64,000 bases of DNA, from positions 69,947-133,946 of the forward strand of contig NZ_QREG01000015.1 in NCBI RefSeq assembly GCF_003386095.1. Reading direction: 5' to 3'. Of the stretch, positions 12,596 through 30,895 are shown in pieces (within the stretch, counting starts at the first letter, position 1; the number at the start of each line of letters is the position of its first letter). The notes beneath the pieces were generated by a model. It was not told the DNA's origin and searched no databases. It was given only the letters and a program-made list of their open reading frames with translations. The stretch is from Marinoscillum furvescens DSM 4134 (GTDB lineage: Bacteria > Bacteroidota > Bacteroidia > Cytophagales > Cyclobacteriaceae). The position numbers and the translations under genes were made by a program.

Positions 12596-12599
12596 GGGT

Positions 12600-12887: not shown

Positions 12888-12889
12888 GT

Positions 12890-13984: not shown

Positions 13985-14028
13985 TTGATCGATATGAACC
14001 GCAAGTTTAATCAAGGTAACCTCGACAG

Positions 14029-14036
14029 CAAACTTA
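14029..14036 (-). promoter_or_regulatory. Candidate -7 promoter element of mrp
   Basis: TAAGTTTG on the minus strand is an exact TAnnTTTG match 45 nt upstream of the mrp start. No TTG is found at the expected -33 spacing, so support is limited to one element. Confidence 0.35.
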
Positions 14037-14144
14037 TGGTTCTTCAGATTACATATATGTCGGGATAAAACCAAAGAAAACCGGTATTGATGGTGTCTGT
14101 TTGGTTTAGATTTGTCCAATCTAAACCCAATACCCCATTTGCTA

Positions 14145-15944
14145 ATGACCTGGTTGCTTTCACTTTTCATCTTGCTCTATTCGCCACCAGTGGTGATCAC
14201 TCCGGATACGCGGGAGGTAGAGCTAAAGGTGACTGATTTGGATTTGTGGGAGGATGTGAAAGGTGATGCCTCCATTGCGCAGGTTTCTGACCCAGACTTT
14301 CAACCGCGGTTTAATAAGGACCTCAATTTTATACCTCAAGATTACAATACGTCATCAGCCTATTGGGTAAAACTCAAAGTGATCATACCGGACGTGCCCA
14401 AAGGGTATTTGTTGGAGTTTTTTGACCAGACGATTGATTCTTTGGATGTCTACATTCAATCCCCGGAAGCAGAAGGTTTTGACCGCTACCAAATGGGCGA
14501 CATGTTTCCCTTTACGGAAAAACCCTTTGCTCATAAAAACTTTGAAATACAGCTGCCGAGAGATGGAGAATACCTCATCTATTTTAGAGTGAAAAGCCAT
14601 GAATATGCGGATATCCGTGTAGCGATCAGGAGTTATTCGTGGTTTATGGAGTATGCGCTGGCTGAGTATTACCTGTATGGCATTTTCTATGGGATGATTT
14701 TGATCATCTCACTATATAACTTGCTCATCTACTCGGCCATTCGCGAGATCAAATACCTCTATTACACATTTTATATGATCAGTGGCGGAGCATTTGCCAT
14801 GAGTGTAGACGGGGTTGGGTTTCAGTACATATGGAGGGAGAGTCCGATGTTTAATCAAGTGGCTCATGGGATTTCCCTGTTTTTGATGATTTTTTGGGCC
14901 ATACTTTTTTCCAAAAAGTTTTTGAACCTGAAAATACGGGCACCCAAAATCGATAAAGTGCTCAACGTAGTATTTGCAGCACGTATCGGGGTGTTTATCT
15001 ATGCGCTGTTTATTAATAATGACCTATTTCAGTATCGGAATATTGAGCTGGTCCCACTTACCATTATATTCTGGGGGAGTATAATGGTGTACCGTAGAGG
15101 TTACCAGCCGGCACGTTTTTTTATTGTGGCTTTTGGTTTTCTTTTCCTGGGATTTATTCTGAAAGCGTTGCTGATGCTTTCGGTCATTCCTTTTTATATC
15201 CTCAGTTATTACAGTCTGCACATTTGTTTTGTGTTTGAGATGCTCTTTCTGTCGTTTGCCCTCAGTGACAGGGTGCGCATCCTCAAGGCCAACAGAGATC
15301 GTGCGCTGAGGCGAATTATCAGCCAACACGAAGAAACTGCGCGGCTCAAGGACGGCATTAATGCGCGACTAGAGCAGGAAGTGGCGCTCAGAACCAATGA
15401 ACTACGCGAAAAGAATGAGCTGCTTGAGCAGCAAAAAAGAGATATCTCGCAGATTAATTCCCTGCTGGACCTGGATAATTATCGTTTGCGCAACAACATT
15501 AAATCGATTCAGCGTGAACGAATTCAAAACAAAGAATTGACCTATGAGGAGTTTAAAGAAGTGTTTGGGTCGAGGGAGGAATGCCTAAAGGCACTGAGCA
15601 ACTTTAAATGGCGCGATGGGTATGCATGTTTCAAGTGTGGAGCCTCTACCCATAGCAAGGGTAGCTCGCCTATGAGCAGGCGCTGTACCAAATGTGGCTA
15701 CCAGGAATCACCCACGACTCATACGTTGTTTCACGGCATTCGATTTCCTTTGGAAAAGGCCTTTTATATCCTTTACGAAACCACCAATAAGGATCAATAT
15801 TCCCTCAACGAGCTTTCTGAAATTCTGGATCTGCGCAAAAACACTGTGTGGGAGTTTAAGAAACGCATAAAATCACAATCTGACAATCAATCGCCAGATA
15901 TTCACGAAATCTTCAATGACATCAGTTCTCAAGTAGAAGTTTGA
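14145..15944 (+). CDS. 7TMR-DISM sensor fused to IS1595-type transposase zinc ribbon
   Basis: This 599-residue protein has a signal-like N-terminal helix, a 7TMR-DISMED2-type extracellular domain (about 25-165), seven membrane helices (about 170-375), a coiled coil (about 385-460) and a cytoplasmic tail. The tail resembles the N-terminal part of IS1595-family transposases: a zinc ribbon with Cys495, Cys498, Cys514 and Cys517, the phrase HTLFHGIRFPLEKAF, then a helix-turn-helix-like stretch (SLNELSEILDLRKNTV, 553-568). No histidine kinase, GGDEF or transposase catalytic domain is present. It is probably a membrane-bound sensor with a DNA-binding output. It ends 270 bp before susC and may regulate the PUL, which has no other regulator nearby. 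The ATG at 14145 is preferred over an upstream TTG. Confidence 0.82.
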   Translation: MTWLLSLFILLYSPPVVITPDTREVELKVTDLDLWEDVKGDASIAQVSDPDFQPRFNKDLNFIPQDYNTSSAYWVKLKVIIPDVPKGYLLEFFDQTIDSLDVYIQSPEAEGFDRYQMGDMFPFTEKPFAHKNFEIQLPRDGEYLIYFRVKSHEYADIRVAIRSYSWFMEYALAEYYLYGIFYGMILIISLYNLLIYSAIREIKYLYYTFYMISGGAFAMSVDGVGFQYIWRESPMFNQVAHGISLFLMIFWAILFSKKFLNLKIRAPKIDKVLNVVFAARIGVFIYALFINNDLFQYRNIELVPLTIIFWGSIMVYRRGYQPARFFIVAFGFLFLGFILKALLMLSVIPFYILSYYSLHICFVFEMLFLSFALSDRVRILKANRDRALRRIISQHEETARLKDGINARLEQEVALRTNELREKNELLEQQKRDISQINSLLDLDNYRLRNNIKSIQRERIQNKELTYEEFKEVFGSREECLKALSNFKWRDGYACFKCGASTHSKGSSPMSRRCTKCGYQESPTTHTLFHGIRFPLEKAFYILYETTNKDQYSLNELSEILDLRKNTVWEFKKRIKSQSDNQSPDIHEIFNDISSQVEV

Positions 15945-16146
15945 TTTTTTCTGATTGTATTTTAAGAAGAATTTTTTCAGGGGTTTTTTAATGACACTCA
16001 AGCGTTACATCAACTAGTCTTTTTTGTGTATTTGAATTTTAATTAAAAATTATTGCTTGTTATTAAAGCGATACAGTTGTGTTTTTGCTGGTGGATTGTG
16101 TTTTCATTTATATTGTATTATTCTAAGATATTAATTTTTGAATTTT

Positions 16147-16177
16147 TTTGAAAACGATTGCAGATTCTCTAAAGTTG
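16147..16177 (+). promoter_or_regulatory. Promoter of the SusC-SusD operon
   Basis: TTTG at 16147-16150, a spacer of 19 nt and TAAAGTTG at 16170-16177 fit the Bacteroidota consensus, with one mismatch in the -7 element. The start of transcription would be near 16183, giving a leader of about 32 nt before susC. The surrounding region 15945-16214 is very AT-rich and holds no gene. Confidence 0.65.
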
Positions 16178-16214
16178 CATCATACAAAACCTATTAAAAT
16201 GTCAAATTCATAAT

Positions 16215-19200
16215 ATGAGAAAGCTTAAACTAAGTCTGATTTTCTCGCTCATGGTGACTTACGTCATGGGGCAGGATTTTACGCTATCCGGTAAGGTGAC
16301 GGATGCAGAAAATGCTGAACCACTGATAGGTGCCAGTGTGGTGGAGAAGGGTACCAGCAATGGTACTATCACTGATATAGAAGGAAACTATCAGCTGACA
16401 GTAGCTTCCGAAGATGCTGTACTGATGGTGTCTTATGTTGGCTATGGATCTCGGGAGGTTCCTGTAAATGGACGTACTTCGCTTGATATTTCCATGGACC
16501 TGGATCTTTCTGAGCTAGAGGAAGTAGTGGTCATCGGCTATGGTACTCAAAAAGAAAAGGACCTCACCTCTGCCATCACTACTGTAAAAGCCGACGAAAT
16601 AGCCAAGACTCCTACGGGGCAGGCGATGCAGGCACTACAGGGTAAAGTGGCTGGTGTGCAGATTGTGAGCAATGGCGTACCCGGTAATTCACCTACGGTA
16701 CGCGTGAGAGGTATTGGTTCATATCCAGGACAGGGCAATGCTGATCCGCTCTATGTGGTGGATGGGATGTTTTTCGACAATATCGATTTTCTAAATCCAT
16801 CGGATATAGCCAGCATATCAGTACTCAAAGATGCCTCAGCTGCAGCTATCTACGGTGTGCGGGCTGCGAATGGTGTGGTGCTCATAGAAACAAAGGCAGG
16901 GTCTTATAACTCTGCTCCTCAAGTGACCTATGACGGGTACTACGGTACACAGGTGCCGCAAAATGTGCTGAAAATGGCCAACGCAGAGCAGTTTACTCAA
17001 TATGCACTGGAAACAGGCAGCGCTGCAGATGCCAGCTATATAGACAATGCAATGCAGCGATACGGCAGAAGCCGAATCAACCCGAATGTGCCGGCTGTGA
17101 ATACAGACTGGTACGATGAAATCATGAAAGCTTCAGCGCCTATTCAAAATCACTCACTCAATGTAAGTGGTGGTACAGACAATACGGTGTATTCCATTGG
17201 TGCTAGTTATTTCCAGCAAGAAGGACTTCTGAAGGAAGCAAAAAACCAATACGACCGTCTGAATATGCGGGCAAAGGTGGATATTGATGCTACGGAGTGG
17301 CTCAAGGTAGGAGGTAACCTCAACGTGAGCAATGCTACGCGATACAGTGGAGAAAATGCTGCCTGGTTTAGAGCATACTATGCGGTGCCGATCATGCCGG
17401 TATTTGATGAGCAAAATACAGAAGCAACAAACAACTATGCGAATGCTCAGGATCTCGGATACCGAAGTGCCCAAAACCCATATACTACACTGGCCTTCAA
17501 TGATAACCGATTGAAGATTCGAAAAGTGTTGGCCAATTTTCATGCAGAAATTGAGCTGATACCCAATAAGCTGAAGTTTAGAACCGCATACAATTACAAC
17601 ACTCAGTCTCTAGAGGAGCGTTTGGTAGACCTGCCTTACAACACGGGCAGAACAGTAATCGATGCGGCCATTCAGAAAAAGGCTGAAGACGTGCTCAACC
17701 AGATTTGGGACAACACACTAACCTACAACGAATCCTTTGGCAAACACTCTGTGGTAGCTATGGCAGGTTACTCTTACCGTGACGAGTCTACACAGGCCAT
17801 CAACATCCGCGGAACGGATTTTGATAATTTTGGTGGTGAAGAGACCTGGTACATCGATCAGGCCAACACGATTGTGCAGGCAAGCTCTGGCGATTTTGGT
17901 TTCCGTGAGTATGGAGTTTCTTACTTTGGCCGCCTGGCTTACAATTTTGATGATCGCTATCTCCTGTATGGAACATTCCGGGCAGAAGGAACATCTCGCT
18001 ACCAGGAGAAATGGGGTTATTTCCCTACCATAGGTGCGGGATGGGTGATTTCTGAAGAGAAGTTTATGCAAAATGTGGCTCCAGTGAGTTTCTTGAAACT
18101 TCGCGGTAGCTGGGGTAAGCTGGGTAATGACTCTGTAAATCCAAGTGTTGGAGGAGCCACTACCTCAGTGGTCACTACAGCCATTGATGGAGAGCGCGTA
18201 ACCGGCCTGGTGGTGGACAACACCTATGACTCACTAGGGTGGGAAGTAGTAGCAGAAACCAACATCGGTCTGACGGCTAGATTCCTCAATAACCGACTCT
18301 CATTAGACGCAGATTATTACATCAGAGATACTGAAAACGCCGTAATCTCACTCCAAATCCCTGTGCAAGGTGGTTCGGTAAGAAGAAATAATGGTGTGAT
18401 CAGAAACGAAGGGTTAGAAGTAGCCCTCAACTGGTCGGATAATTTGTCTGATGATTTGAATTACAATTTCGGGCTGAATTTTGCCACACTCAATAATGAG
18501 ACACTTGACCTGGGAGGCCAGCCTTATATCGATGGCGGCTCGGCAGAGTTTCGTCAGCGTACATACGTAGGAGAGCCACTTTTGGCCTTCTATGGCAGAG
18601 AGGTGCTGGGTGTATACCAGACCGAAGAAGAAATTCTCAATAGCGGTTTGAGTGAAGAGTTTTTGGCGGATGCCAACCTGGAGCCCGGTGACTTTATCTA
18701 CAAAGATCAGGACGGAGATGGCGATATCGATGATGAAGACCGTGTGATTCTCGGTTCATACCTGCCTTCGTTTACCTATGGTTTCAATGTAGGGCTCAAC
18801 TACAAAAATTGGGAATTTACCGCAAACTTCCAGGGGCAGCGTGGCAACAAGATTCTTAACCGTAAGCGCGGAGAGATCATCTTTACCAATGATGCCAACA
18901 TAGATGCTGACCTGGCCACCAACCTGTGGAGAGGTGAGGGCACTTCGAATAAGTACCCGTCTGCTGCTGGCTTGCGCAAAGGCTGGAACCAGGCGCTGAG
19001 TGACTATTTTATCGAAGATGGTTCGTACTTCCGCGTACAAAATGTACGTGTAGCGTACCGAATACCCGCTTCGGAAATGCTAGGACGAAAAACACCAGAA
19101 ACCAAAATCACCTTTACGGCCGAACGCCCAATTACAATGTTTGATTACAATGGTTTCAACCCTGAAGTAAGCAACGGTATTGACCGTCAGGTCTACCCGA

Positions 19201-19241
19201 TACCTGCTGTATATACCATGGGTGTAAACATGAAATTCTAA
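16215..19241 (+). CDS. SusC/RagA-family TonB-dependent outer-membrane receptor
   Basis: The 1008-residue protein imports oligosaccharides across the outer membrane with energy from TonB. It has a signal peptide (about 1-19), a carboxypeptidase-regulatory-like domain (about 22-105, SGKVTDAENAEPLIGASV), a TonB-box region (EEVVVIGYGTQKEKDLT), the SusC plug signature (LQGKVAGVQIV, VRVRGIGS, YVVDG) and a 22-strand barrel. Length and order are typical of SusC. It is the first gene of the PUL, 21 bp before susD, and lies behind a good promoter. The family does not show the substrate; the enzymes downstream suggest a beta-1,2-glucan. Confidence 0.95.
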   Translation: MRKLKLSLIFSLMVTYVMGQDFTLSGKVTDAENAEPLIGASVVEKGTSNGTITDIEGNYQLTVASEDAVLMVSYVGYGSREVPVNGRTSLDISMDLDLSELEEVVVIGYGTQKEKDLTSAITTVKADEIAKTPTGQAMQALQGKVAGVQIVSNGVPGNSPTVRVRGIGSYPGQGNADPLYVVDGMFFDNIDFLNPSDIASISVLKDASAAAIYGVRAANGVVLIETKAGSYNSAPQVTYDGYYGTQVPQNVLKMANAEQFTQYALETGSAADASYIDNAMQRYGRSRINPNVPAVNTDWYDEIMKASAPIQNHSLNVSGGTDNTVYSIGASYFQQEGLLKEAKNQYDRLNMRAKVDIDATEWLKVGGNLNVSNATRYSGENAAWFRAYYAVPIMPVFDEQNTEATNNYANAQDLGYRSAQNPYTTLAFNDNRLKIRKVLANFHAEIELIPNKLKFRTAYNYNTQSLEERLVDLPYNTGRTVIDAAIQKKAEDVLNQIWDNTLTYNESFGKHSVVAMAGYSYRDESTQAINIRGTDFDNFGGEETWYIDQANTIVQASSGDFGFREYGVSYFGRLAYNFDDRYLLYGTFRAEGTSRYQEKWGYFPTIGAGWVISEEKFMQNVAPVSFLKLRGSWGKLGNDSVNPSVGGATTSVVTTAIDGERVTGLVVDNTYDSLGWEVVAETNIGLTARFLNNRLSLDADYYIRDTENAVISLQIPVQGGSVRRNNGVIRNEGLEVALNWSDNLSDDLNYNFGLNFATLNNETLDLGGQPYIDGGSAEFRQRTYVGEPLLAFYGREVLGVYQTEEEILNSGLSEEFLADANLEPGDFIYKDQDGDGDIDDEDRVILGSYLPSFTYGFNVGLNYKNWEFTANFQGQRGNKILNRKRGEIIFTNDANIDADLATNLWRGEGTSNKYPSAAGLRKGWNQALSDYFIEDGSYFRVQNVRVAYRIPASEMLGRKTPETKITFTAERPITMFDYNGFNPEVSNGIDRQVYPIPAVYTMGVNMKF

Positions 19242-19262: not shown

Positions 19263-20789
19263 ATGCAACGATTATATAAAGCAATACATGGATTGATGCT
19301 CGCCCTGGCGGTGGTTTCGTTTTCTGCCTGCGAGGATCGTCTGGAAGAACCGGATGAAAACACCGTGTTCAGTGAAGATACCGACTATACCAATTCGGAC
19401 AATATGCTGCCGGTACTCATCGGCGCATACGAAGGATTCTACACCCGGGGATGGGAAAATCACCTGCTGATTGGTGTACGTGGTGATGATGTAAATGCCG
19501 CGGGAGATCAGGTGCCACTGACCGAAACCGATCTGTATCGATATGACCCCAACTTCTGGCTGTACAACAGCACCTGGGAGGGATTCTACGGAGATATCTT
19601 AAATGCTCATGCAGCTATGGAAGAGCTCTCCAAATACAAAGAGTTTGCACCTAATCCCGCACTGGCAGATCAATATATTGCAGAAATCCGCGTGATGCGT
19701 GCCTATATGCTTTTGCAAGTGGCTCGTTTGTGGGGAGATGTATATGTGCCCCAAAGCTCAGAAGCTATTGCCTTGCTGGAGGCAGATGTGACTTCATTTG
19801 AAGGAGTGATGCAGCACATCTCTGAGCAAATGGACCTGGCTATCCCCAATCTGCCAACAGTGCATCCCAATCAGCGAACTGATATCCGAGGAGGAATGAC
19901 AGTATATACGGCTTATGCCGTGAAAGCACTGGCCAACCTTGAGATCAACAATTGGCAGGCCGTGGCTGATGCTACTTCAGAGATCATTGGGTCTGGTGAA
20001 TTTAGTTTGGAGCCTGATTTCTATAGCCTTTTCAAACTCAATGGAAAACTCAATGATGAAAATATACTGGAGCTACAATTTTCAGACTTTGGACAAGGTG
20101 AAGGCGATTCTTTTGATCACCTCTACGCCCCCTATGGTCCTTCCAACTGGACTCCAGCCGTAGAGTCAGCTTCTGGCGGATGGGGTTTTTATGAGCCATC
20201 TCTGGAGTACATAAAGTTCATGCTGGATAGAGATGAATCTGTTCGTTTGGAAACCAGTGTGCTGTTTACCCCCGCGGGTATCGAGGAATTGCAGGCTGAT
20301 CCGGCATACTCCACACTGCCAGATCATGTGTCAAGTGTCACTCGCGATGGAGATCAAATCAACAACAACGCCAGAGCGCTGTTTAGCAGCGGTAAGCACT
20401 ACCTGCCATCCAACCAACTGACTCCTGGTCGTACACGCTATGGTAGCAACAAAAACTTCCAATGCATTCGCTATGCGGAGATGTTGCTGGTACATGCCGA
20501 AGCGCTCGTCAATGGAGCCAATAGCAGCGTAATGTCAGCCGATGAAGCGGTGAATGCTGTGAGAAATCGAGCAGGGTTTGCCACACCACTTTCAGGTGTT
20601 ACCCTGGATGATGTGTTGAACGAAAAGCTGGCAGAGCTGGGCATGGAATGGGGCAACCGCTTCTACGATATGGTGCGCCATGGACGTGGAAGTGAACTGG
20701 ATGAGTCTGACAGGACTTTTGATGAATCCGACAGATTCTTGCCTTATCCACAAAACCAGGTAGACCAGCTCCCTAAGCTCAATCAGTAA
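19263..20789 (+). CDS. SusD/RagB-family glycan-binding lipoprotein
   Basis: A 508-residue lipoprotein with lipobox SFSAC (Cys23). It matches the SusD family: an N-terminal TPR-like helical region (WEGFYGDILNAHAAMEEL, EIRVMRAYMLLQVARLWGDVY) and a C-terminal part with the signature LAELGMEWGNRFYDMVRHG. SusD proteins form a lid on their SusC partner and hand over glycans. The gene follows susC directly and was certainly selected with it. Confidence 0.95.
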   Translation: MQRLYKAIHGLMLALAVVSFSACEDRLEEPDENTVFSEDTDYTNSDNMLPVLIGAYEGFYTRGWENHLLIGVRGDDVNAAGDQVPLTETDLYRYDPNFWLYNSTWEGFYGDILNAHAAMEELSKYKEFAPNPALADQYIAEIRVMRAYMLLQVARLWGDVYVPQSSEAIALLEADVTSFEGVMQHISEQMDLAIPNLPTVHPNQRTDIRGGMTVYTAYAVKALANLEINNWQAVADATSEIIGSGEFSLEPDFYSLFKLNGKLNDENILELQFSDFGQGEGDSFDHLYAPYGPSNWTPAVESASGGWGFYEPSLEYIKFMLDRDESVRLETSVLFTPAGIEELQADPAYSTLPDHVSSVTRDGDQINNNARALFSSGKHYLPSNQLTPGRTRYGSNKNFQCIRYAEMLLVHAEALVNGANSSVMSADEAVNAVRNRAGFATPLSGVTLDDVLNEKLAELGMEWGNRFYDMVRHGRGSELDESDRTFDESDRFLPYPQNQVDQLPKLNQ

Positions 20790-20810: not shown

Positions 20811-22586
20811 ATGAAAACAATATATAAAATCACATTTATGGCGGTGGCAGCTTTGTTCGCATTTTCCTGCGAGCAAGGCATAGACCCCATCACACCGATG
20901 GAGCCCGGAGCCGATGAGGCTGCCCCCACCGTGACGATCAACTACCCTCAGGAAGGAACGAAGATCAAGGTAAATGAGGCTGTGACTTCTATCAATATCA
21001 AGTTTGAGGTGGAGGACGATATTGAAATCGCGTCCATTAGTGTAAACCTCGACGGTACAGAAATTAGTAGCTACAATGAGTTTAAAGACTACCGACGCGT
21101 ACAAGAAGAGTATCTATACGAAGAGCTAAACGATGGAAGCCATGTGCTGACCATTACAGCCACAGACATAGAAGGGAAATCGACTTCCGAGTCTGTAAAC
21201 TTTGAGAAAGAGCCAGCCTACGTGCCTATGTACGATGGAGAGGTGTTTTACATGCCATTCGATGGCGACAACATCGAGCTGGTGAGTATCACACAGCCCA
21301 CAGTAGTGGGAAATCCCGGGTTTGCTGGTGAAGGCATACAGGGAGGAAATGCTTATGCAGGTGCTGAAGGGTCATACCTTACTTTCCCTACAGAAGGACT
21401 GCAAGGAAGTGAATTTAGTGCTGCATTTTGGGTCAAGGTAAATGCTACTCCTGATCGCGCAGGTGTGTTGGTCATGGGTCCCGAAGACAGTGCCAACCCC
21501 GATAATCAAAATGTACGAACCAGTGGTTTTCGTCTCTTCCGAGAAAATGCCGGAGGAATGCAGCGCTTTAAGCTAAATGTAGGAACAGGAGAATCGGATA
21601 GCTGGTTTGACGGTGGCGCTGCGGCGGATGTAGATCCCTCTGCTGACGAATGGACGCACATTGCCTTTACCATAGGAGCTTCTAAGGCTACTGTATACAT
21701 TGATGGTGTTGTTGCTAAAGAGGGAGAATTTGCAGGCGTAGACTGGACGGGGTGTGACGTGCTGTCTATCATGTCTGGAGCACCACGTTTTACCGGCTGG
21801 GGGCACCTGTCAGATCAAAGTTTCATGGATGAATTGCGCATTTTCAATAAAGAGCTATCTGCTCAGGAGATCGCAACGATCATCGAAAATGAATCAGGAA
21901 ATGCAGTAGATAGAAGCCAGTATGGCGAAGTATTTCACATGCCATTTGAAGGTGATTTGACTGAAACCATTGGCGACCTAAATGCCACAGCGGTAGGAAA
22001 CCCAGGCTTTGCTGGTAGTGGTAAAGTAGGAGCCAATGCTTATCAGGGAGCAGCTGACTCCTATGTGAGTGTGCCTGCTACCTCACTCCAAAGCGATGAG
22101 TTCAGTGCGACGTTTTGGTACAAAGTGAATGCTACGCCGGATCGTGCAGGGATACTGGTCATGGGCCCCAAAGATACGGATAACCCTGACGCCCAGAACA
22201 AACGAACCAGTGGATTCCGCTTTTTCCGCGAAGGAGGAGAGACCAACCAGATATTCAAGCTCAACGTAGGCTCTGGAGAAGCTGATAGCTGGTTTGATGG
22301 TGGCGCTGCAGCTACCATTGACCCTACGGCTAATTCAGGGTGGGTACACATGGCCTTTACCATTTCGGCTACACAATGCACCGTCTATATCGATGGTGAA
22401 GTGGTAGCTCAGGGTGATTTCACCGGTGTAGACTGGACGGGCTGTGACCTGTTGTCTATCGGATCCGGAGCACCTCGCTTCACTGGCTGGGGCCACGGCG
22501 CAGATCAGAGTCAGCTCGATGACCTGTTCATCTTTGATAAGGCACTAACGCAGGCAGAAGTGCAGGCGATAGCAAGCGGTAATTGA
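20811..22586 (+). CDS. Surface lipoprotein with Ig-like domain and two LamG-like domains (probable glycan-binding protein)
   Basis: The 591-residue protein has a lipobox at Cys20 (FAFSC), an Ig-like domain at about 38-133 (PTVTINYPQEGTKIKV) and two closely similar LamG/concanavalin-like jelly rolls at about 143-360 and 372-589. Both repeats share phrases such as DSWFDGGAAA, VYIDG and GAPRFTGWGH, so they arose by recent duplication. It occupies the SusE/SusF position after susD, where surface glycan-binding proteins are usual. No catalytic residues are recognised, so binding is inferred from fold and position. Confidence 0.82.
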   Translation: MKTIYKITFMAVAALFAFSCEQGIDPITPMEPGADEAAPTVTINYPQEGTKIKVNEAVTSINIKFEVEDDIEIASISVNLDGTEISSYNEFKDYRRVQEEYLYEELNDGSHVLTITATDIEGKSTSESVNFEKEPAYVPMYDGEVFYMPFDGDNIELVSITQPTVVGNPGFAGEGIQGGNAYAGAEGSYLTFPTEGLQGSEFSAAFWVKVNATPDRAGVLVMGPEDSANPDNQNVRTSGFRLFRENAGGMQRFKLNVGTGESDSWFDGGAAADVDPSADEWTHIAFTIGASKATVYIDGVVAKEGEFAGVDWTGCDVLSIMSGAPRFTGWGHLSDQSFMDELRIFNKELSAQEIATIIENESGNAVDRSQYGEVFHMPFEGDLTETIGDLNATAVGNPGFAGSGKVGANAYQGAADSYVSVPATSLQSDEFSATFWYKVNATPDRAGILVMGPKDTDNPDAQNKRTSGFRFFREGGETNQIFKLNVGSGEADSWFDGGAAATIDPTANSGWVHMAFTISATQCTVYIDGEVVAQGDFTGVDWTGCDLLSIGSGAPRFTGWGHGADQSQLDDLFIFDKALTQAEVQAIASGN

Positions 22587-22614: not shown

Positions 22615-22640
22615 GGGGTTGCCTTGTTGAAGGCAACCCC
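22615..22640 (+). other. Perfect intra-operon hairpin before the first GH144 gene
   Basis: GGGGTTGCCTT and AAGGCAACCCC form an 11-bp perfect stem around loop GTTG. No T-tract follows, so it is not a classic terminator. It lies between the binding-protein gene (stop 22586) and the GH144 gene (start 22657). It may stabilise the 3' end of the susCD part of the message, attenuate transcription into the enzymes, or mark processing. Confidence 0.7.
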
Positions 22641-22656
22641 AATTCTACCTACTACT

Positions 22657-24621
22657 ATGAAACCATTGGTCTACTTTACGGTGCTTTTTTTGTTGCTCCA
22701 TTCCAGTTGCAAGCAACAGGATGAGGTGGAAGCATTACGCCTGGAAAACGCTTTCTTAGGTGATGTTGCCCTTAAGCTTGAGGCCATCACGGAGGACGCA
22801 CCAGTAGATCGATCTCTTTCACTTGTTTTTTCGGCTGCTATCAATCAATCTTCAGCAGAAGATGCATTGACGCTTACAACCGGTATTGATGAAGTCGATT
22901 TTACGCTTTCATTCCCATCGCCACATTCGCTTACCCTCAGGCCAACAGGAGGCCTGCAACATGCCACGCTCTATACACTACAGATTCAGGACGGATTTTC
23001 TGGCACGGAAGGCCAGCAGCTGACGCCTACCACCATACAGTTCAGAACGATCCGAGGTGAGTTGGTCATCCAGAAAGTAGTTCTCAATGGACAATCGCTC
23101 ACCAACGAGTTTAGGCAAACAGATGTGGCGCGTGACCTTGAAGTGGTTTTTGATTTTAGCGTGCCAGTGAGCGTGGAGGATTTAGAGCAAAACCTTAAGC
23201 TGAGTGGAGCAGGAAGCCCAAGCATTAGTATTTCCATTTCAGAAAATGAACAAAAGGCATCAGTTGCATCGAGTTCTACACTCGCAGAGTGGAACTTGTA
23301 CGAGCTTTCGTTGAGTGATGACTTTACCGGTCTGGAGGGTGAGCCCTTTGGCGGTTGGTCACTAGAGCTGGTTACGGAGCTGGATTCTACTCCAGTATTT
23401 CCTGAGATGACTGATGACGAATTGCTTACCTTGATTCAGCAGCAGACTTTTAAATACTTCTGGGACTTTGCCCACCCGGTAAGTGGCCTGGCTCGCGAGC
23501 GCAATACAAGTGGTGAAACCGTCACTACAGGAGGATCTGGGTTTGGCCTGATGGCCATTCTGGTAGGCATAGAGCGCGGGTTTATCACACGTGCAGCGGG
23601 TGTAGAGCGCCTTCAGACCATCGTCAACTTTTTGGCCGATAAGGCAGAGCGCTTCCACGGCGTATGGCCTCACTGGCTAAATGGCACCACAGGTAAAACG
23701 CGTCCTTTTAGTACCAAAGATGATGGAGGTGATCTGGTGGAAACATCCTTTTTGATGCAGGGTCTGCTGACGGTAAGGCAGTACCTGGATGCGACAGATA
23801 CCGAAGAAGCTAGCATCATTGCCACCATCAATCAGCTGTGGCATGGTGTGGAGTGGGAGTGGTACACCAAAGGAGGTGAAAATGTACTGTACTGGCACTG
23901 GAGTGAAACGTATGATTGGGAGATGAATCATAAGATTCAAGGGTGGAATGAGTCCCTGATCACCTATGTGTTGGCGGCAGCTTCACCCACCCACGGCATC
24001 AGCAAGGAGGTATACACCCAGGGCTGGGCACGTGGAGGAAATATGGTAAATGGTCAGTCGGTGAGCCATTTTGGATACACGATGCCTTTACGGTCTGATA
24101 GAGGAGGACCATTGTTTTTTTCGCATTATTCCTTTTTTGGGCTGGACCCAAGAAACCTGATAGATCAATATGCTAACTACTGGGACCAAAATGTAAACCA
24201 CAGCAAAATCAATCATGCATACTGCGCCGCGAACCCCAAGCAATACATTGGCTACAAATCCTACTGCTGGGGCCTTACTGCCAGTGATAATCATGAAGGA
24301 TACAATGCACATTCTCCAGACAATGACCTGGGGGTAATTACGCCCACGGCAGCCGTGTCTTCTATACCCTACACACCGGAAGAAAGCATGGCGGCTATCC
24401 GTCATTTCTATTACATCATGGGTGATGAGCTCTGGGGCGAATATGGGTTTTACGATGCCTTCAATGTGACGGAAAATTGGACTGCATCGTCATACCTGGC
24501 CATCGATCAGGGGCCGATTGTAATCATGATCGAAAACTATCGTACCGGATTGCTTTGGGAGCTTTTTATGTCAGCTCCTGAGGTGCAAGACGGGTTAGAC
24601 ATACTAGGATTTACTTATTGA
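22657..24621 (+). CDS. GH144-type (glycoamylase, PF10091) lipoprotein with N-terminal Ig-like domains
   Basis: The 654-residue lipoprotein has a lipobox at Cys18 (LHSSC), two Big_5-like Ig domains (about 40-135 and 140-240) and a catalytic domain of about 250-654. That domain matches the family annotated as glycoamylase, GH144 in CAZy, an (alpha/alpha)6 barrel whose characterised members are endo-beta-1,2-glucanases. Family landmarks are FKYFWDFAHPVSGLARER, GGSGFGLMAILVGIERGFI, KDDGGDLVETSFLMQGLL and the C-terminal AIDQGPIVIMIENYRTG. The acidic residues in KDDGGDLVE are the likely catalytic region. The start at 22657 gives a proper lipoprotein signal; an upstream TTG adds residues ahead of it. 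It probably cuts the polymer at the cell surface. Confidence 0.87.
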   Translation: MKPLVYFTVLFLLLHSSCKQQDEVEALRLENAFLGDVALKLEAITEDAPVDRSLSLVFSAAINQSSAEDALTLTTGIDEVDFTLSFPSPHSLTLRPTGGLQHATLYTLQIQDGFSGTEGQQLTPTTIQFRTIRGELVIQKVVLNGQSLTNEFRQTDVARDLEVVFDFSVPVSVEDLEQNLKLSGAGSPSISISISENEQKASVASSSTLAEWNLYELSLSDDFTGLEGEPFGGWSLELVTELDSTPVFPEMTDDELLTLIQQQTFKYFWDFAHPVSGLARERNTSGETVTTGGSGFGLMAILVGIERGFITRAAGVERLQTIVNFLADKAERFHGVWPHWLNGTTGKTRPFSTKDDGGDLVETSFLMQGLLTVRQYLDATDTEEASIIATINQLWHGVEWEWYTKGGENVLYWHWSETYDWEMNHKIQGWNESLITYVLAAASPTHGISKEVYTQGWARGGNMVNGQSVSHFGYTMPLRSDRGGPLFFSHYSFFGLDPRNLIDQYANYWDQNVNHSKINHAYCAANPKQYIGYKSYCWGLTASDNHEGYNAHSPDNDLGVITPTAAVSSIPYTPEESMAAIRHFYYIMGDELWGEYGFYDAFNVTENWTASSYLAIDQGPIVIMIENYRTGLLWELFMSAPEVQDGLDILGFTY

Positions 24622-24651: not shown

Positions 24652-25995
24652 ATGAAGAACGGATTATATATCTCACTTATGGCCTGCCTCTTACTGGCGG
24701 GAGCGTGCAGCAGCAGACAGCAGAATGAAGCAGCAAACACGACAGCTGTTTCTAAAGATTCATTGTTGACCCACGTACAATACCAGACTTTTCAGTACTT
24801 CTGGGAAGGTGCTGAGCCTAATTCTGGTTTGGCAAGGGAGCGCATACACATGGATGATATTTACCCCAGCAACGATCGTAATGTGGTCACCTCTGGTGGT
24901 TCAGGCTTTGGCGTGATGGCCATCCTGGTAGGAGTGGAGCGCGGATTTATTACTCGAGCGCAGGCAGTGGAGCGTTTTCAAAAAATTCTCAATTTCCTGG
25001 AAACAGCCGATCGCTTTCACGGTGTATACCCACACTGGTGGTTTGGAGATACCGGAAAAGTAAAAGCATTTAGCAAAAAGGATGATGGTGGAGACCTGGT
25101 AGAGACGGCCTTTTTGATGCAGGGGCTGTTGGCTGTTCGTCAGTACTTTCAGGATGGAAATGAAGCCGAAAAAGAAATAGCTCGCCGCATCGACGCTATC
25201 TGGAAAGATGTAGAGTGGGACTGGCACACCAAAGGCGGTGAAAATGTGTTGTACTGGCACTGGTCGCCAAATTATGGCTGGGAAATGGATTTTCCGGTAG
25301 GTGGCTACAACGAGTGCTTGATCATGTACATATTGGCAGCATCATCACCTACCCATGGGGTGTCTCCGGAAGTTTATCATGAAGGCTGGGCCAAAAATGG
25401 CGCCATCGAAACAGACGAGACCTACTATGGCTATGACCTGGTACTCAACCACTACGAGCACGATGCCAGTAAAGTTGGTCCGTTGTTTTGGGCACACTAT
25501 TCGTACCTGGGGCTGGATCCCCGCGGGCTCAAAGATCAGTATGGTGAGTACTGGACACTCAACACCTCCCATGCCAAGTCGCACTATGCCTACTGCGTAG
25601 AAAATCCAGAAGGGTACGAAGGCTATGGCTCCAACTGCTGGGGGCTGACTTCCAGCTACTCCATGAAAGGATATGCGGGTCACCGACCAGACAGGGATTT
25701 GGGGGTCATTTCTCCAACTGCAGCTCTTTCTTCCATTGCATACACACCGGAAGAGACCATGGCCATGATGGAATTTCTTTACGCCCCGGAGCGTGATTCT
25801 TTAGTGGGAAAATACGGTCCTTATGATGCGTTTAGCTTTGAAAATGACTGGTACCTGCCTCGCTACCTGGCCATCGATCAGGGACCTATTCCGGTCATGA
25901 TCGAAAACTACCGTAGTGGATTGCTGTGGGACCTGTTTATGTCTGCACCAGAAGTACAGGAAGGACTCAAAAAACTCGGTTTTAGCTATGAATAA
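24652..25995 (+). CDS. Second GH144-type (glycoamylase, PF10091) lipoprotein, single domain
   Basis: A 447-residue lipoprotein (lipobox LAGAC, Cys19) that consists of the catalytic domain only. It aligns with the preceding protein throughout: FQYFWEGAEPNSGLARER, GGSGFGVMAILVGVERGFI, KKDDGGDLVETAFLMQGLL, AIDQGPIPVMIENYRSG. It differs in a longer insert near the N-terminus of the domain (HMDDIYPSNDRN). The pair may split work between long polymer and shorter oligosaccharides, or between surface and periplasm. It is 30 bp after the first copy and overlaps the esterase gene by 8 bp. Confidence 0.87.
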   Translation: MKNGLYISLMACLLLAGACSSRQQNEAANTTAVSKDSLLTHVQYQTFQYFWEGAEPNSGLARERIHMDDIYPSNDRNVVTSGGSGFGVMAILVGVERGFITRAQAVERFQKILNFLETADRFHGVYPHWWFGDTGKVKAFSKKDDGGDLVETAFLMQGLLAVRQYFQDGNEAEKEIARRIDAIWKDVEWDWHTKGGENVLYWHWSPNYGWEMDFPVGGYNECLIMYILAASSPTHGVSPEVYHEGWAKNGAIETDETYYGYDLVLNHYEHDASKVGPLFWAHYSYLGLDPRGLKDQYGEYWTLNTSHAKSHYAYCVENPEGYEGYGSNCWGLTSSYSMKGYAGHRPDRDLGVISPTAALSSIAYTPEETMAMMEFLYAPERDSLVGKYGPYDAFSFENDWYLPRYLAIDQGPIPVMIENYRSGLLWDLFMSAPEVQEGLKKLGFSYE

Positions 25996-26776
25996 GGCGC
26001 TTTCAATTCTCAGCCTATTTCTGCTTTTTGGTACGGTTGCCAGCGCTCAGCTTGATAAATCAACATTTGAAAAGCAAGTCTACCAGAACGAAGGGTTTTC
26101 TCTAAACTACCGTATCCTTTATCCAGAGGGCTTTGATGCCAACAAAGAATATCCTGTAGTCCTTTTTCTGCACGGTGCAGGAGAGCGGGGTAGTGACAAT
26201 GAGCGCCAACTCATACACGGAAGTAAACTTTTTCTGGCGGAAGATTTTCGAGCAGATTATCCGGTAGTCGTAATTTTCCCACAGTGCCCAAGGGAGAGCT
26301 ACTGGTCTACTGTGGACGTGGAGCGTCAGCCGGGAAACAACAGGTTCACATTTAGAGACTCAGGAAAGGCACTGCCCCCTATGAAAGCGGTGGTGGCTCT
26401 TATGGATTCTATCCAATCGTTGGAGTATTCTAAAGACGATCAAATCTATGTTGGCGGACTGTCCATGGGAGGTTTGGGAACCTTCGAAATCCTTTGGCGG
26501 AGGCCGGAGATGTTTGCGGCTGCTTTCCCCATTTGCGGAGGGGGTAACCCCAGCACTGTAGATGCCTATGCTGCAAATACAAGTCTGTGGGTGTTTCACG
26601 GCGCCAAAGACGATGTGGTATTTCCTACTTACAGTACGGACATGGTCATTGCGCTCCAAAAGGCAGATGCTGATGTGAAATACACCCTGTACAAAAATGC
26701 CAACCACAATAGCTGGGGTCCGGCATTTGCAGAGCCTCAATTGTTTCCCTGGCTTTTTTCTAAATCCAAAAAATGA
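25988..26776 (+). CDS. Secreted alpha/beta-hydrolase esterase (CE1/PHB-depolymerase-like)
   Basis: The 262-residue protein has a signal peptide (MNKALSILSLFLLFGTVASAQ) and an alpha/beta-hydrolase fold. The triad can be read as Ser159 in GGLSMGG, Asp208 in HGAKDD and His240 in NANHNSWG; the oxyanion region is FLHGAGERG. Relatives are annotated as phospholipase/carboxylesterase, dienelactone-hydrolase-like or feruloyl/acetyl esterases. Within this PUL a role in removing acyl groups from the glycan is likely but unproven. The start at 25988 overlaps the GH144 stop; an earlier in-frame start would lack a signal peptide. It overlaps the next gene by 4 bp (ATGA). Confidence 0.85.
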   Translation: MNKALSILSLFLLFGTVASAQLDKSTFEKQVYQNEGFSLNYRILYPEGFDANKEYPVVLFLHGAGERGSDNERQLIHGSKLFLAEDFRADYPVVVIFPQCPRESYWSTVDVERQPGNNRFTFRDSGKALPPMKAVVALMDSIQSLEYSKDDQIYVGGLSMGGLGTFEILWRRPEMFAAAFPICGGGNPSTVDAYAANTSLWVFHGAKDDVVFPTYSTDMVIALQKADADVKYTLYKNANHNSWGPAFAEPQLFPWLFSKSKK

Positions 26777-28563
26777 AGATGAAATACCTCATTATACTTT
26801 TTTTAAGCTTAGTGGCTTTAGGTGGTTTTGCTCAAAAACAAACCTACTGCAACCCAGTGGATATTGATTATACCTACATGTCACACTATGCTTACCGCGG
26901 CGTTTCGTATCGTTCTGGAGCAGATCCGGCTGTGATCAACTACAAGGGCAAGTACTACATGTTTGTCACACGTTCGCACGGTTACTGGTATTCGGATGAT
27001 ATGAGCGATTGGAAGTTTGTGCGTCCGCAGAGTTGGTACTTCAATGGCAGCAACGCGCCAGCTGCAGCCGTGTACAAAGACGAGGTGATTGTGCTTGGAG
27101 ATCCCTCTGGGCGTGGAGCCGTGATCAAAACCGATGATCCCATCAAAGGAGACTGGAAAACCACCTATAGTGTCATTCCTTTAGGTATTCAGGACCCAAA
27201 CCTCTTTGTGGATGAAGATGATCGGGTGTACCTCTACGAAGAATCTTCCAACAAATGGCCGATTCGCGGTGTGGAACTGGATGCTGAAAACTGGTTTTTA
27301 CCCAAAACGGAAGAAAAAGACCTCTTTAAGCTACATCCCGAAGTGCATGGCTGGGAACGCTTTGGTCAAAACCATGAGTCGGACATGAAGCCGTTTATAG
27401 AAGGACCGTGGATGTCCAGACATGGTGATACTTACTACCTCGAATACAGTGCGCCTGGTACCCAGTGGAATGTCTATGCGGATGGGGTATATACCGCCAA
27501 AAGCCCCTTGGGGCCTTTTGAGTATGCTCCTTACAACCCCATTTCGTACAAGCCGGGAGGTTTTCTCACGGGGGCAGGTCATGGCAGCACGGTGAGAGAT
27601 AATCACGGACAATACTGGCACTATGCCAGCATGACCATTTCCGTAAACTACAAGTTTGAGCGCCGCATTGGTATGTTTCCCGCTGGATTTGAGGAGGACG
27701 GGCAGATGTATGTCAACACTGCTTACGGCGATTATCCTCACTTTTTACCAGATACTGAGGTGGATGATCATAAAGAGCGTTTTACCGGATGGATGCTTTT
27801 GTCTAAAGACAAGCCCATTACTACTAATAGTGTGCTTACAGGCGTAAAGCAAAATGTGGTAGATGAAACGGACTCTGGATATATGCTGGATCAGGAAAAG
27901 CCTGATTATACCGCTGGTCGTGCCAATGACGAAAACATGCGCACCCTTTGGGTGGCAGAAAACAATAGCGATTCGCTATACCTGCAAGTAGATCTTGGGG
28001 AGGTAATGGATGTGAAGGCTGTTCAAATCAACTTTATGGATTTTAATGCATACGTACTTGGTAAGCCGGACACCTTGCGTCAGCAGTTTGTAATAGAAAC
28101 CTCCAAAGACGGCAAAACCTGGCAGACGAGTGTTGATTTTTCGGATAACCAGCAGGACAGACCTCACGCTTACATAGAGCTGCCTGAGGCTGTAAAAGCA
28201 AGGTATGTACGCTATCAAAACGTCTATTTCCCTAATCAGTACCTGGCCATCGCGGAGTTTAGAGTGTTTGGAAATGGAAATGGCAAAGCACCGAAAACGC
28301 CTGCCGCTTTTGTAGCTGCCAGACAATCTGATGAGCGCAATGCAGACCTGAGTTGGAAACCCGTAAAAGATGCCATGGGCTATGTGGTTTATTGGGGCAT
28401 AGCTCCAGACCGCCTAAACAACTCTGTGATGATCTACGACCAGTCAGAGTATGCACTAAGAGCCCTCAACAAGGGCGTGGACTATTACTTGCAGGTAGAG
28501 GCATTTAACGAAAATGGAATTTCTAAAAAATCAAAGCTATTGACATGCGAGGCAAGCAAATGA
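26773..28563 (+). CDS. GH43-like glycosidase with discoidin (F5/8 C) and fibronectin III domains
   Basis: A 596-residue secreted protein with a signal peptide (MKMKYLIILFLSLVALGGFAQ). Residues of about 25-340 form a five-bladed propeller of the GH43/GH62 clan with the three expected acids: Asp51 in RSGADPAV (base), Asp141 in IQDPNLF and Glu210 in FIEGPW (acid). A discoidin-like carbohydrate-binding domain (about 385-510) and an Fn3 domain (about 512-596) follow. GH43 enzymes mostly remove arabinose, xylose or galactose units; the subfamily is unknown here. It may cut side chains from the target glycan. It is coupled by ATGA overlaps to both neighbours. Confidence 0.82.
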   Translation: MKMKYLIILFLSLVALGGFAQKQTYCNPVDIDYTYMSHYAYRGVSYRSGADPAVINYKGKYYMFVTRSHGYWYSDDMSDWKFVRPQSWYFNGSNAPAAAVYKDEVIVLGDPSGRGAVIKTDDPIKGDWKTTYSVIPLGIQDPNLFVDEDDRVYLYEESSNKWPIRGVELDAENWFLPKTEEKDLFKLHPEVHGWERFGQNHESDMKPFIEGPWMSRHGDTYYLEYSAPGTQWNVYADGVYTAKSPLGPFEYAPYNPISYKPGGFLTGAGHGSTVRDNHGQYWHYASMTISVNYKFERRIGMFPAGFEEDGQMYVNTAYGDYPHFLPDTEVDDHKERFTGWMLLSKDKPITTNSVLTGVKQNVVDETDSGYMLDQEKPDYTAGRANDENMRTLWVAENNSDSLYLQVDLGEVMDVKAVQINFMDFNAYVLGKPDTLRQQFVIETSKDGKTWQTSVDFSDNQQDRPHAYIELPEAVKARYVRYQNVYFPNQYLAIAEFRVFGNGNGKAPKTPAAFVAARQSDERNADLSWKPVKDAMGYVVYWGIAPDRLNNSVMIYDQSEYALRALNKGVDYYLQVEAFNENGISKKSKLLTCEASK

Positions 28564-30884
28564 AATTAGAGATGAAGGAATTGATGAAAATAAGTTGGTT
28601 GTTAGTGATGATCTGTATGGTAGGCTGTGGGCGCACTGAGCGTCCTCAGTCTCCATCAGATGTAGGTGCGCGAGTAGACTCGCTCATGCAGCTGATGACC
28701 CTGGAAGAAAAGATTGGCCAGCTGAATTTGCCTTCGGCAGGAGATATCAGCACGGGGGAGGCCACCAGCTCAGGCATAGGCCAAAAAATCAAGGAAGGAA
28801 AAGTTGGTGGGTTGTTCAACATCAAGACGGCAGAGAAGATCCGTGAAGTGCAGCGCATCGCTGTGGAAGAAAGCCGTCTGAAGATCCCATTGATCTTTGC
28901 CATGGATGTGATTCATGGCTATAAAACTGTCTTTCCGATACCATTGGGCCTGGCAGCCAGCTGGAACATGCAAAACATCGAGCGGTCTGCACGTATAGCA
29001 GCCAATGAAGCCACCGCTGACGGTATTGCCTGGACATTCTCACCCATGGTGGATATCGCCCGCGATCCCCGCTGGGGCAGGGTAGCCGAAGGTGCAGGAG
29101 AAGACCCTTTCCTGGGAGGGGAAATAGCCAAAGCGATGGTGCGTGGCTATCAAGGCGATGACCTTACGGCACCAAACACCATGCTGGCTTGTGTGAAGCA
29201 CTTCGCGCTCTACGGCGCTTCCGAAGCAGGTCGAGATTACAACACCACAGACATGAGCCGCCTGCGTATGTACAACGAATATTTCTACCCCTATCAGGCG
29301 GCCGTGGATGCAGGCGTAGGGTCTGTTATGGCTTCATTCAATGAAATTGATGGTATTCCAGCCACAGGAAATCGCTGGTTAATGACCGAGGTGCTTAGAA
29401 ATCAGTGGGATTTCAATGGATTTGTGGTTAGCGACTACACTGGCATCAATGAAATGATCGCTCACGGCATGGGTGATTTGGAGCAGGTCTCAGCGCTCGC
29501 TCTAAAAGCTGGAATAGATATGGACATGGTTGGCGAAGGGTTTTTGACTACTCTCCAAAAAAGTCTGGAGGAAGGCAAAATAACAGAAGCAGCTATAGAC
29601 CAGGCGTGCAGACGTATTCTGGAAGCTAAGTTCCGATTAGGGTTGTTCGAAAACCCATACCAGTATGCAGATCCAGAGCGGGCAAAGAAGGAAGTGTTTA
29701 CGGCTGAAAACAGAGCAGAAGCAAGAAAGATTGCTGCTGAGTCTTTTGTGCTTTTGAAAAATGAAAACAACGTGCTACCCATTCAGTCTGACCAGACGAT
29801 TGCTTTGGTGGGGCCACTGGCCGACAATAAAGAGAATATGGCGGGCACGTGGAGTGTAGCGGCAGATTTTGATCAGGCCGTATCGCTCAAAGAAGGAATC
29901 GAGCAAGTAATGCCCGACGCACGTATCTTACATGCTCGAGGGTCCAATATCTATGCGGATAAAGAGCTGGAAGCACGTGTAAGCATCTTTGGGAAACCCA
30001 CCTACCGGGATGAGCGCTCAGAAGCGGCTATGATCCGTGAGGCCGTGGCTGTGGCCAAAAAAGCCGACGTGGTGGTGGCCGCATTGGGTGAGGCTGCGGA
30101 GATGTCTGGTGAGAGCTCCAGTCGAACGGATATCGGACTTCCTAAGACGCAACAAAAATTACTGAATGCTCTGCTAAAGACTGGAAAGCCTGTAGTGCTG
30201 GTGCTCTTTACAGGCAGGCCACTCGCCATTAAGTGGGAGGCTGAGCATGTGCCTGCTATACTAAATGTTTGGTTTGGAGGTACGGAGGCCGGGCTGGCCA
30301 TTGCAGATGTGCTTTCAGGAGAGGTAAACCCTTCAGGTAAGCTACCTATGACGTTTCCTCAAAATGTGGGTCAGGTGCCTATTTTTTACAACCACAAAAA
30401 CACCGGACGTCCACTACCAGAAGGCAAGTGGTTTCAGAAATTCCGCAGCAACTACCTGGATGTATCCAATGAGCCGCTTTATGCTTTCGGCTATGGGCTC
30501 AGCTATACCACATTTGAGTATGGCGAAATATCGGTGAGTCACACCGCACCAGGTGCGTCGGATGTGGTGAAGCTCACGGTGCCCGTAACCAATACCGGCA
30601 AGGTGTCAGGCAAAGAGGTGGTACAGCTCTACATTCGGGATTTGGTAGGCTCCACCACACGTCCGGTTAAGGAACTTAAAGGATTTCAAAAAGTAGCGAT
30701 CAATGCCGGGGAGACTAAAGAAGTAACCTTCGAAATAACTACAGATGACCTGAAGTTTTATACCTACGACCAGTTTGCCAAAGACCAGAAGATCATTCAC
30801 ACCTGGGAGCCTGGCGTGTTTGAGTTGATGGTAGGAGGTAGCAGTGATGCCGTGCAAAAAGTAGAAATCACCTGGAGTAAGTAA
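28560..30884 (+). CDS. GH3-family beta-glucosidase lipoprotein (BglX-like)
   Basis: The 774-residue lipoprotein (lipobox MVGC, Cys23) has the full GH3 set: an N-terminal TIM barrel (about 35-370), an alpha/beta sandwich (about 400-620) and a C-terminal Fn3-like domain. The nucleophile is Asp292 in FVVSDYTG; substrate-binding phrases are DPRWGRVAEGAGEDP and CVKHFALYGASEAGRDY. GH3 enzymes release glucose from the non-reducing end. With GH144 next door it probably degrades beta-1,2-gluco-oligosaccharides to glucose in the periplasm, as reported for a GH3 enzyme of Bacteroides. The start at 28560 is chosen because its ATG overlaps the upstream stop (ATGA). Confidence 0.92.
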   Translation: MKLEMKELMKISWLLVMICMVGCGRTERPQSPSDVGARVDSLMQLMTLEEKIGQLNLPSAGDISTGEATSSGIGQKIKEGKVGGLFNIKTAEKIREVQRIAVEESRLKIPLIFAMDVIHGYKTVFPIPLGLAASWNMQNIERSARIAANEATADGIAWTFSPMVDIARDPRWGRVAEGAGEDPFLGGEIAKAMVRGYQGDDLTAPNTMLACVKHFALYGASEAGRDYNTTDMSRLRMYNEYFYPYQAAVDAGVGSVMASFNEIDGIPATGNRWLMTEVLRNQWDFNGFVVSDYTGINEMIAHGMGDLEQVSALALKAGIDMDMVGEGFLTTLQKSLEEGKITEAAIDQACRRILEAKFRLGLFENPYQYADPERAKKEVFTAENRAEARKIAAESFVLLKNENNVLPIQSDQTIALVGPLADNKENMAGTWSVAADFDQAVSLKEGIEQVMPDARILHARGSNIYADKELEARVSIFGKPTYRDERSEAAMIREAVAVAKKADVVVAALGEAAEMSGESSSRTDIGLPKTQQKLLNALLKTGKPVVLVLFTGRPLAIKWEAEHVPAILNVWFGGTEAGLAIADVLSGEVNPSGKLPMTFPQNVGQVPIFYNHKNTGRPLPEGKWFQKFRSNYLDVSNEPLYAFGYGLSYTTFEYGEISVSHTAPGASDVVKLTVPVTNTGKVSGKEVVQLYIRDLVGSTTRPVKELKGFQKVAINAGETKEVTFEITTDDLKFYTYDQFAKDQKIIHTWEPGVFELMVGGSSDAVQKVEITWSK

Positions 30885-30895
30885 CTATAGAAACT

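Follow-up and report, generated by a model that had tools for sequence, protein, structure and literature searches.

Which protein controls a PUL that has no recognised type of regulator among its scanned neighbours? The question was raised by a 64,000-nucleotide stretch of the genome of Marinoscillum furvescens DSM 4134 (the window), in which the gene directly before susC encodes a seven-helix sensor whose last part resembles the DNA-binding region of an IS1595-type transposase. The comparisons below make it very probable that this fusion sits in the inner membrane and controls transcription of the PUL downstream of it as a one-component regulator, equipped with a captured transposase DNA-binding domain.

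The open reading frame of the regulator starts with ATG; an alternative TTG at 14112 would add 11 residues. Both domains that mark a 7TMR-DISM protein, the 7TM domain and an extracellular DISMED domain, were detected with Pfam (Table 1), and a profile of the regulator family matched solved periplasmic sensor domains of the RetS type in its DISMED2 part. Within the predicted coiled coil, L441, N445 and L448 were invariant among 65 aligned homologues. The usual output of 7TMR-DISM proteins is a kinase, cyclase or phosphatase. As the family name permits diverse outputs, the DNA-binding-type output of the regulator is a variant. The fusion thus shares DISMED2 and 7TM domains with RetS, LadS and NicD and differs from receptors of that type in its output: no kinase, cyclase or phosphatase domain was detected by Pfam, and the helices were followed just by the IS1595 zinc ribbon. 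Helices combined with a DNA-binding-type domain are what would be expected of a transmembrane transcription regulator (TTR), and the predicted order, with the sensor outside and the DNA-binding-type end inside, is compatible with a SusR-like layout. NCBIfam returned nothing useful for the regulator. The AlphaFold models, computed from four-sequence alignments, were too weak for an informative fold comparison, with a mean pLDDT of 51 for the full-length protein and of 60 for the C-terminal domain, in which the zinc-ribbon blocks reached 76-85.

Table 1 Features of the regulator gene, the candidate operator and the downstream PUL (positions in the window)
Feature	Position	Strand	Evidence
Regulator gene, 599 aa: DISMED2 sensor, 7TM, coiled coil, IS1595 zinc ribbon and HTH	14145..15944	+	ORF, Pfam, homologues
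7TMR-DISMED2 domain, predicted periplasmic, residues 31-161	14235..14627	+	Pfam PF07696, E 2.1e-23
7TMR-DISM_7TM seven-helix region, residues 174-376	14664..15272	+	Pfam PF07695, E 2.5e-42
Long helix / coiled coil, predicted, ~residues 377-462	15273..15530	+	Alignment; low-confidence model
IS1595-type zinc ribbon, residues 476-520 (C495, C498, C514, C517)	15570..15704	+	Pfam PF12760, alignment
Helix-turn-helix-like region, ~residues 535-577, common to IS1595 transposases	15747..15875	+	Homology; low-confidence model
Distal candidate operator repeat AATGACACTCAAGCGTTA	15990..16007	+	9.5 bits, leave-one-out
Proximal candidate operator repeat CTTGTTATTAAAGCGATA, 66 bp from distal	16056..16073	+	19.9 bits, leave-one-out
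Promoter-like box TTTG-N19-TAAAGTTG	16147..16177	+	Scan of 35 regions
SusC-like TonB-dependent receptor	16215..19241	+	Pfam
SusD-like lipoprotein	19263..20789	+	Pfam
Surface protein, two Laminin_G_3 stretches	20811..22586	+	Pfam
PF10091 glycoside hydrolase with Big_5 domain	22624..24621	+	Pfam
Second PF10091 glycoside hydrolase	24652..25995	+	Pfam
Esterase / alpha-beta hydrolase (start approximate)	25994..26776	+	Pfam
GH43-like enzyme with F5/8 and Fn3 domains	26773..28563	+	Pfam
GH3 enzyme	28545..30884	+	Pfam
Sulfatase	30896..32389	+	Pfam

The two PF10091 enzymes of the PUL, which we take to be GH144-like, are encoded by the sole PF10091 genes of the genome, which contains 41 SusD matches. 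A Pfam scan of the first six PUL proteins and of ten flanking ones (6005-14170 and 26773-35707) found no HTCS, ECF/anti-sigma, AraC or other regulator. The pair of sigma-70 region 2/4 and FecR-like domains was absent from the regulator and the scanned flanking genes, and the histidine kinase, receiver and AraC domains of an HTCS were absent from the regulator (Pfam). One 897-aa open reading frame on the reverse strand (6916-9609) consists of two fused D-Ala-D-Ala ligase units, with two N-terminal and repeated C-terminal Pfam stretches; this double gene is kept at 71-72% in the Marinoscillum-type loci L003-L005.

The match to the zinc-ribbon model was weak when taken alone (E 1.3e-4): in two scans it scored just under the cut-off of 25.4 bits (22.3 and 25.3 bits) and in the genome search over it (27.3 bits). 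It is not a chance match, because short open reading frames of related genomes aligned with residues 463-579 of the regulator, the best two of them at 48% identity (E ~1e-30, ~117 residues). Two such short frames that were scanned with Pfam (L097, L102) encode the zinc ribbon followed by the DDE domain PF12762. This domain was not found by Pfam in the C-terminal part of the regulator, where the zinc ribbon was the sole match, and the protein ends about 20 residues beyond the helix-turn-helix region with no transposase catalytic domain after it. Since the homology spans both the zinc ribbon and the helix-turn-helix region, the captured part corresponds to the N-terminal region of the transposase up to its catalytic domain. 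C495, C498, C514 and C517 were invariant in 65/65 aligned homologues; so was T567 in the helix-turn-helix region, and L557 and F571 were almost as conserved as the cysteines. A divergent family member (L060) matched the NCBIfam model of IS1595 transposases weakly (22.3 bits against a cut-off of 75). In a FastTree phylogeny of this short domain, covering 133 sequences (126 fusions and 7 transposases), a single branch with a support of 0.93 parted the fusions from the transposases, which is compatible with one capture of the transposase domain. At the level of sequence, these comparisons show that the C-terminal domain descends from the DNA-binding region of an IS1595-type transposase and is missing the catalytic domain.

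The preliminary description had read the open reading frame as a 7TMR-DISM sensor with a coiled coil and a zinc ribbon formed by these four cysteines, followed by an HTH-like region without transposase catalytic residues. The ORF list and Pfam bear out this architecture, as do the invariant cysteines and the absence of PF12762. Its further observation that no HTCS, ECF/anti-sigma or AraC regulator lies near the PUL holds within the Pfam-scanned genes between 6005 and 35707.

A full-length fusion was present in at least 49 of the 98 genomes of the host's taxonomic family. Across the order, where the search scored six candidates in each genome, at least 57 of 194 genomes had a match that extended to the C-terminal end of the profile; one of these matches was without the N-terminal part. 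The phylum search, which scored three candidates per genome, gave the fusion in 11 of 395 genomes, none of them beyond the class. When the C-terminal domain was the sole query and at most 11 candidates were scored in each genome, an open frame of 617-718 aa, the size by which a fusion was judged in this search, was recorded for 16 of the 395 class genomes. A third type of carrier was not seen among the matches listed for these 395 genomes, in which the other frames were at most 428 aa long and mostly transposase-sized. Some genomes carry several copies: in one order genome (G590) all six candidates scored were full-length fusions, and one of its loci (L147) holds two fusions in tandem. The genome of M. 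furvescens contains one fusion and one other 7TMR-DISM match.

It could be argued that the regulator is a recent chance fusion of a sensor gene with an IS1595 element, or an assembly artefact, given that similar IS1595 elements exist in related genomes. However, the same fusion recurs in at least half of the family genomes as well as in other families of the order and class, and no other IS1595 zinc ribbon above the cut-off was found in the own genome. This explanation has next to no probability left, and we discarded it as refuted by the distribution.

Among named records, the fusion was found in Marinoscillum, in a MAG labelled Rickettsiales and on plasmids of Persicobacter, Aureibacter and Flammeovirga; where the plasmid matches were named, they were annotated as '7TM diverse intracellular signaling domain-containing protein'. 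The regulator of L005 (PBTY01000035.1), a record titled 'Rickettsiales bacterium', is 70% identical to that of the window and lies in the same Mrp and susCD neighbourhood as in Marinoscillum; its 'Rickettsiales' label is probably wrong. The record of a 1.6 Mb plasmid of Persicobacter sp. JZB09 (CP012852.1) contains 14 places that match the regulator at least partly, which suggests that this replicon bears many paralogues of 7TM sensors or regulators. One class genome (G256) contains eleven transposase-sized copies of the IS1595 domain that are close to the fusion profile, possibly a recent burst of the nearest mobile relatives.

Gene neighbourhoods were compared for 126 distinct fusions. Of these, 46 are close homologues with an identity of ~39% or more, 19 are divergent members of the family, and 61 come from 60 further stretches chosen among the listed best matches of the order and phylum searches; two of the latter loci, L197 and L198, are again from family members. 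As the genomes are related, the locus counts are not independent. Among the close homologues, susC was the next gene on the same strand in 38/46 and lay within four genes in 44/46, the exceptions being one locus with just a susD-like gene nearby (L074) and one with neither (L039). The typical order in the window's clade was regulator, susC, susD, surface protein and one or two PF10091 enzymes. Outside the Marinoscillum-like loci, what lies upstream of the regulator differs from locus to locus, and thus the linkage is to the PUL. In none of the 19 divergent family members was susC next on the same strand, and a divergent susC stood upstream in 8 of 63 loci of the family set. In the further set, which represents the order and class, susC came next in 6/59 (L156, L186, L195, L196, L197 and L198) and within four genes in 13/61.

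The immediate neighbours of this further set were scanned for 118 of 120 genes, the two left out being regulators, and the 25 commonest families of each scan were considered. They included at least ten sulfatases, seven GH3, six CBM6, four GH18, three GH9, two GH81 and one GH97, together with many proteins that have no evident link to glycans, such as Crp-type HTH (4), DUF2339 (3), outer-membrane efflux (3), ABC transporter (3) and chalcone-isomerase-like (3) proteins. GH10 and GH16 were among the recurrent neighbour clusters within three genes of fusions. As a control, we took sensors that have this 7TM type but no zinc ribbon: susC was next in 0/26 and within four genes in 2/26. Their neighbours were response regulators, kinases and housekeeping genes, with one GH3 and one sulfatase among the 45 of 52 genes scanned (the seven left out were regulator fusions, genes shared with a regulator and two adjoining 7TM genes). 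Judged from gene order, the linkage of the fusion to PUL and CAZyme genes is conserved. The expectation that the architecture repeatedly precedes susC was thus confirmed in the regulator's own clade; it held for none of the divergent family members and for few members of the order and class set. The stricter version, that it always precedes susC, was rejected outside the window's clade and replaced by the statement that it often lies beside polysaccharide-degrading genes.

Two similar boxes were first visible in the aligned gaps between regulator and susC of close relatives. Across 44 such gaps, a scan of spacings from 20 to 129 bp gave the strongest direct-repeat signal at 64 bp (mean z 1.28), followed by 65 bp (0.76), and when motif discovery was started at random 60 times, the eleven top-scoring distinct motifs listed were all shifts of TTGTTaTTaAAGCGttA. 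The candidate operator consists of two direct repeats of this motif, 64-66 bp apart, before susC. In a leave-one-out test, each locus was withheld when the matrix was retrained, although the starting point was the all-locus matrix; a forward site above 8 bits was found in 40/44 regulator-susC regions and a reverse site in 3/44. Direct pairs 62-68 bp apart (mostly 64-66 bp), with both sites above 7 bits for a matrix trained on all 44 regions, occurred in 34/44 compared to 3/194 of the other intergenic regions of the same loci; 10/44 were without such a pair.

The repeats were also recovered across SusC types. When the 23 loci that have the SusC type of the window served as training set, again with random starts, the matrices found pairs in 14/21 loci of the other type (controls 4/194), and matrices trained on those 21 found pairs in 16/23 (controls 3/194), at a threshold of 7 bits. 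Above 5 bits, pairs were present in 20/23 and 15/21 loci, respectively. Between these 35 loci, identity was 60% in the sites, 37% in the spacer (pairs of equal length) and 33% in the flank. Rearranged loci keep an intergenic pair with the operon: it lies before an esterase gene followed by susC in L003, before the operon in L053 (divergent susC) and L076 (other genes between regulator and susC), and likewise in L095, a stretch adjoining L090. Beside distant regulators, the pair precedes GH18-type genes in L141, assigned by Pfam, and in L143, typed by length and place only. The whole-locus scan also gave 12 pairs inside open reading frames and three other intergenic ones (L042 on the reverse strand, L163 and L173), which indicates that the matrix has a background rate.

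The own genome has 40 other SusD places; at the susC promoters of the 20 that were sampled, no site scored above 10 bits (highest 10.0) and no pair above 3. TGTTATTAAAGCG occurs exactly once in this genome, at the PUL promoter after the regulator; its matches with up to two mismatches (44 forward, 49 reverse) were not above those of the reversed control pattern (60 and 62), and a search of 98 genomes with a short IUPAC core pattern for the pair remained at chance level and was uninformative. In 71 promoter regions of members without susC next, neither a common de novo motif, mostly low-information G-rich columns being returned, nor a peak at a spacing of 64 bp was found; in a scan with the matrix derived before, a site above 10 bits was nonetheless present in 18/71, some of these loci being near-duplicates, compared to 16/431 controls from the same loci and 0/95 from 7TM-only loci. 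In the class-level member L195, the pair before susC (TTGTTTATAAAGCGTATT and TTGTTTACGAAACGTATT) is 76 bp apart, about one turn over the norm. A connection between the operator and IS1595 terminal repeats was considered and dropped, as the best matrix matches in two transposases fell inside coding sequence, while the search for repeats gave no clear result. From the alignments and scans, we conclude that candidate repeats six helical turns apart are conserved before the linked operon.

Given that the repeats were found by association only, they might be bound by a regulator encoded elsewhere, to which the 7TM protein signals or which it merely adjoins. Several observations make this improbable. 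The repeats occur with two SusC types, also in the cross-type held-out test, and before GH18-type genes beside distant homologues, while none was found at the 20 further susC promoters sampled in this genome. What such loci share is the regulator gene, and the flanking genes scanned encode no other regulator. The preliminary proposal of a membrane-bound one-component PUL regulator is thus strengthened by the susC linkage in its own clade and by the candidate double operator within 15945-16214, and qualified by the rarity of an adjacent susC in distant members.

Zinc ribbons can also bind proteins. The zinc ribbon and helix-turn-helix region could therefore have lost DNA binding and serve protein contacts, with the 7TM protein acting as a generic sensor, a reading that would fit the many members outside the family without an adjacent susC or listed CAZyme. 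It is a very remote prospect, as residues of the helix-turn-helix region are conserved as strictly as the cysteines (T567) or nearly so (L557, F571), and as it leaves the linkage to polysaccharide genes and the co-conserved candidate operator unexplained.

For the fusion as regulator of the PUL, the sign of control is a separate matter. In the window and, at an equal distance, in two close relatives, a promoter-like box of the Bacteroidota-type consensus begins 91 nt downstream of the point where the proximal repeat starts; hence, both repeats lie upstream of it. In total, the box was found in 5 of 35 regions and not in the other 30, compared to about two in shuffles, and is therefore weak evidence. 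The sequence does not fix the sign of control, and in many loci the proximal repeat is just ~100-200 bp from the start of susC, so that the fusion might instead be a repressor relieved by its ligand. The position of both repeats upstream of the box, weak as this evidence is, and a layout like that predicted for the activator SusR (PMC3878776) speak against repression, which we regard as unlikely.

The closest parallel in regulatory logic is SusR of Bacteroides, a membrane protein with a periplasmic sensor and a cytoplasmic DNA-binding domain, for which direct repeats with a spacing of 67 or 77 bp have been predicted as sites, read as dimers on one face of the DNA at a distance of six or seven turns (PMC3878776). 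The fusion shares with SusR the predicted layout of sensor and DNA-binding-type end, the association with PULs and a pair of similar spacing (64-66 bp compared to 67 or 77 bp, both predicted), and the 76 bp pair of L195 beside the 64-66 bp norm parallels the two forms of the SusR sites. The two proteins seem to differ, as far as SusR is described, in their DNA-binding domains: that of the fusion is of IS1595 origin, and that of SusR had no significant similarity to other known regulators according to the 2013 paper (PMC3878776). With SusR compared by description, the best reading is that the regulator is SusR-like in logic. HTCS likewise regulate PULs from the membrane as single polypeptides, and direct-repeat sites have been predicted for them too; however, the fusion contains no kinase, receiver or AraC domain, and the predicted HTCS repeats average 21 bp apart (PMC3878776) instead of 64-66 bp. 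Seven-helix 7TMR-DISM receptors fused to a DNA-binding domain of the ChiS family have been reported among proteobacterial genomes (PMC8092284); as described there, the ChiS domain is a cryptic HTH, whereas the fusion carries a transposase zinc ribbon. IS1595 transposases have the zinc ribbon and helix-turn-helix region in common with the fusion, at the identity given above, but possess the DDE domain PF12762 and fall on the other side of the branch that separates the C-terminal domains.

Regarding mechanism, an oligosaccharide released by the PUL enzymes would bind DISMED2 in the periplasm; the DISMED2 domain of NicD has reportedly been linked to direct carbohydrate binding (PMC8544897). A dimer would then relay the signal, by way of its seven-helix regions and coiled coil, to two zinc-ribbon/HTH heads, which may occupy the pair of repeats ahead of the promoter and, once bound, would most likely activate transcription of the PUL. 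It is likely, if somewhat less so than the function of the single regulator, that such proteins form a class of PUL regulators unrecognised so far, alongside SusR, HTCS and ECF/anti-sigma systems. This class would have arisen when a seven-helix sugar receptor captured one IS1595 DNA-binding region. Within the order it would since have spread and diversified, some genomes holding several copies, and each protein would read two direct repeats, separated by six turns, in front of a polysaccharide operon. In mainly open-access literature, judged largely by titles, we found no description of such a fusion protein and no link between 7TMR-DISM proteins and either PULs or transposase-derived DNA-binding domains; PMC6690266 and PMC9431278 hold both terms.

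The two-repeat layout that the fusion has in common with the predicted SusR sites, despite a different sensor and, as far as tested, a different DNA-binding domain, suggests a repeat geometry on which membrane-tethered PUL regulators converge. In the window, where the scanned genes flanking the PUL encode no recognised type of regulator, and in related loci, the fusion would fill this place. If this is true, the fusion is a marker for the regulator, its operator may be used to predict regulons, and the ligand of its membrane sensor should report the glycan. It would also be an instance of a membrane receptor that has acquired, as its output, the DNA-binding part of a bacterial DDE transposase.
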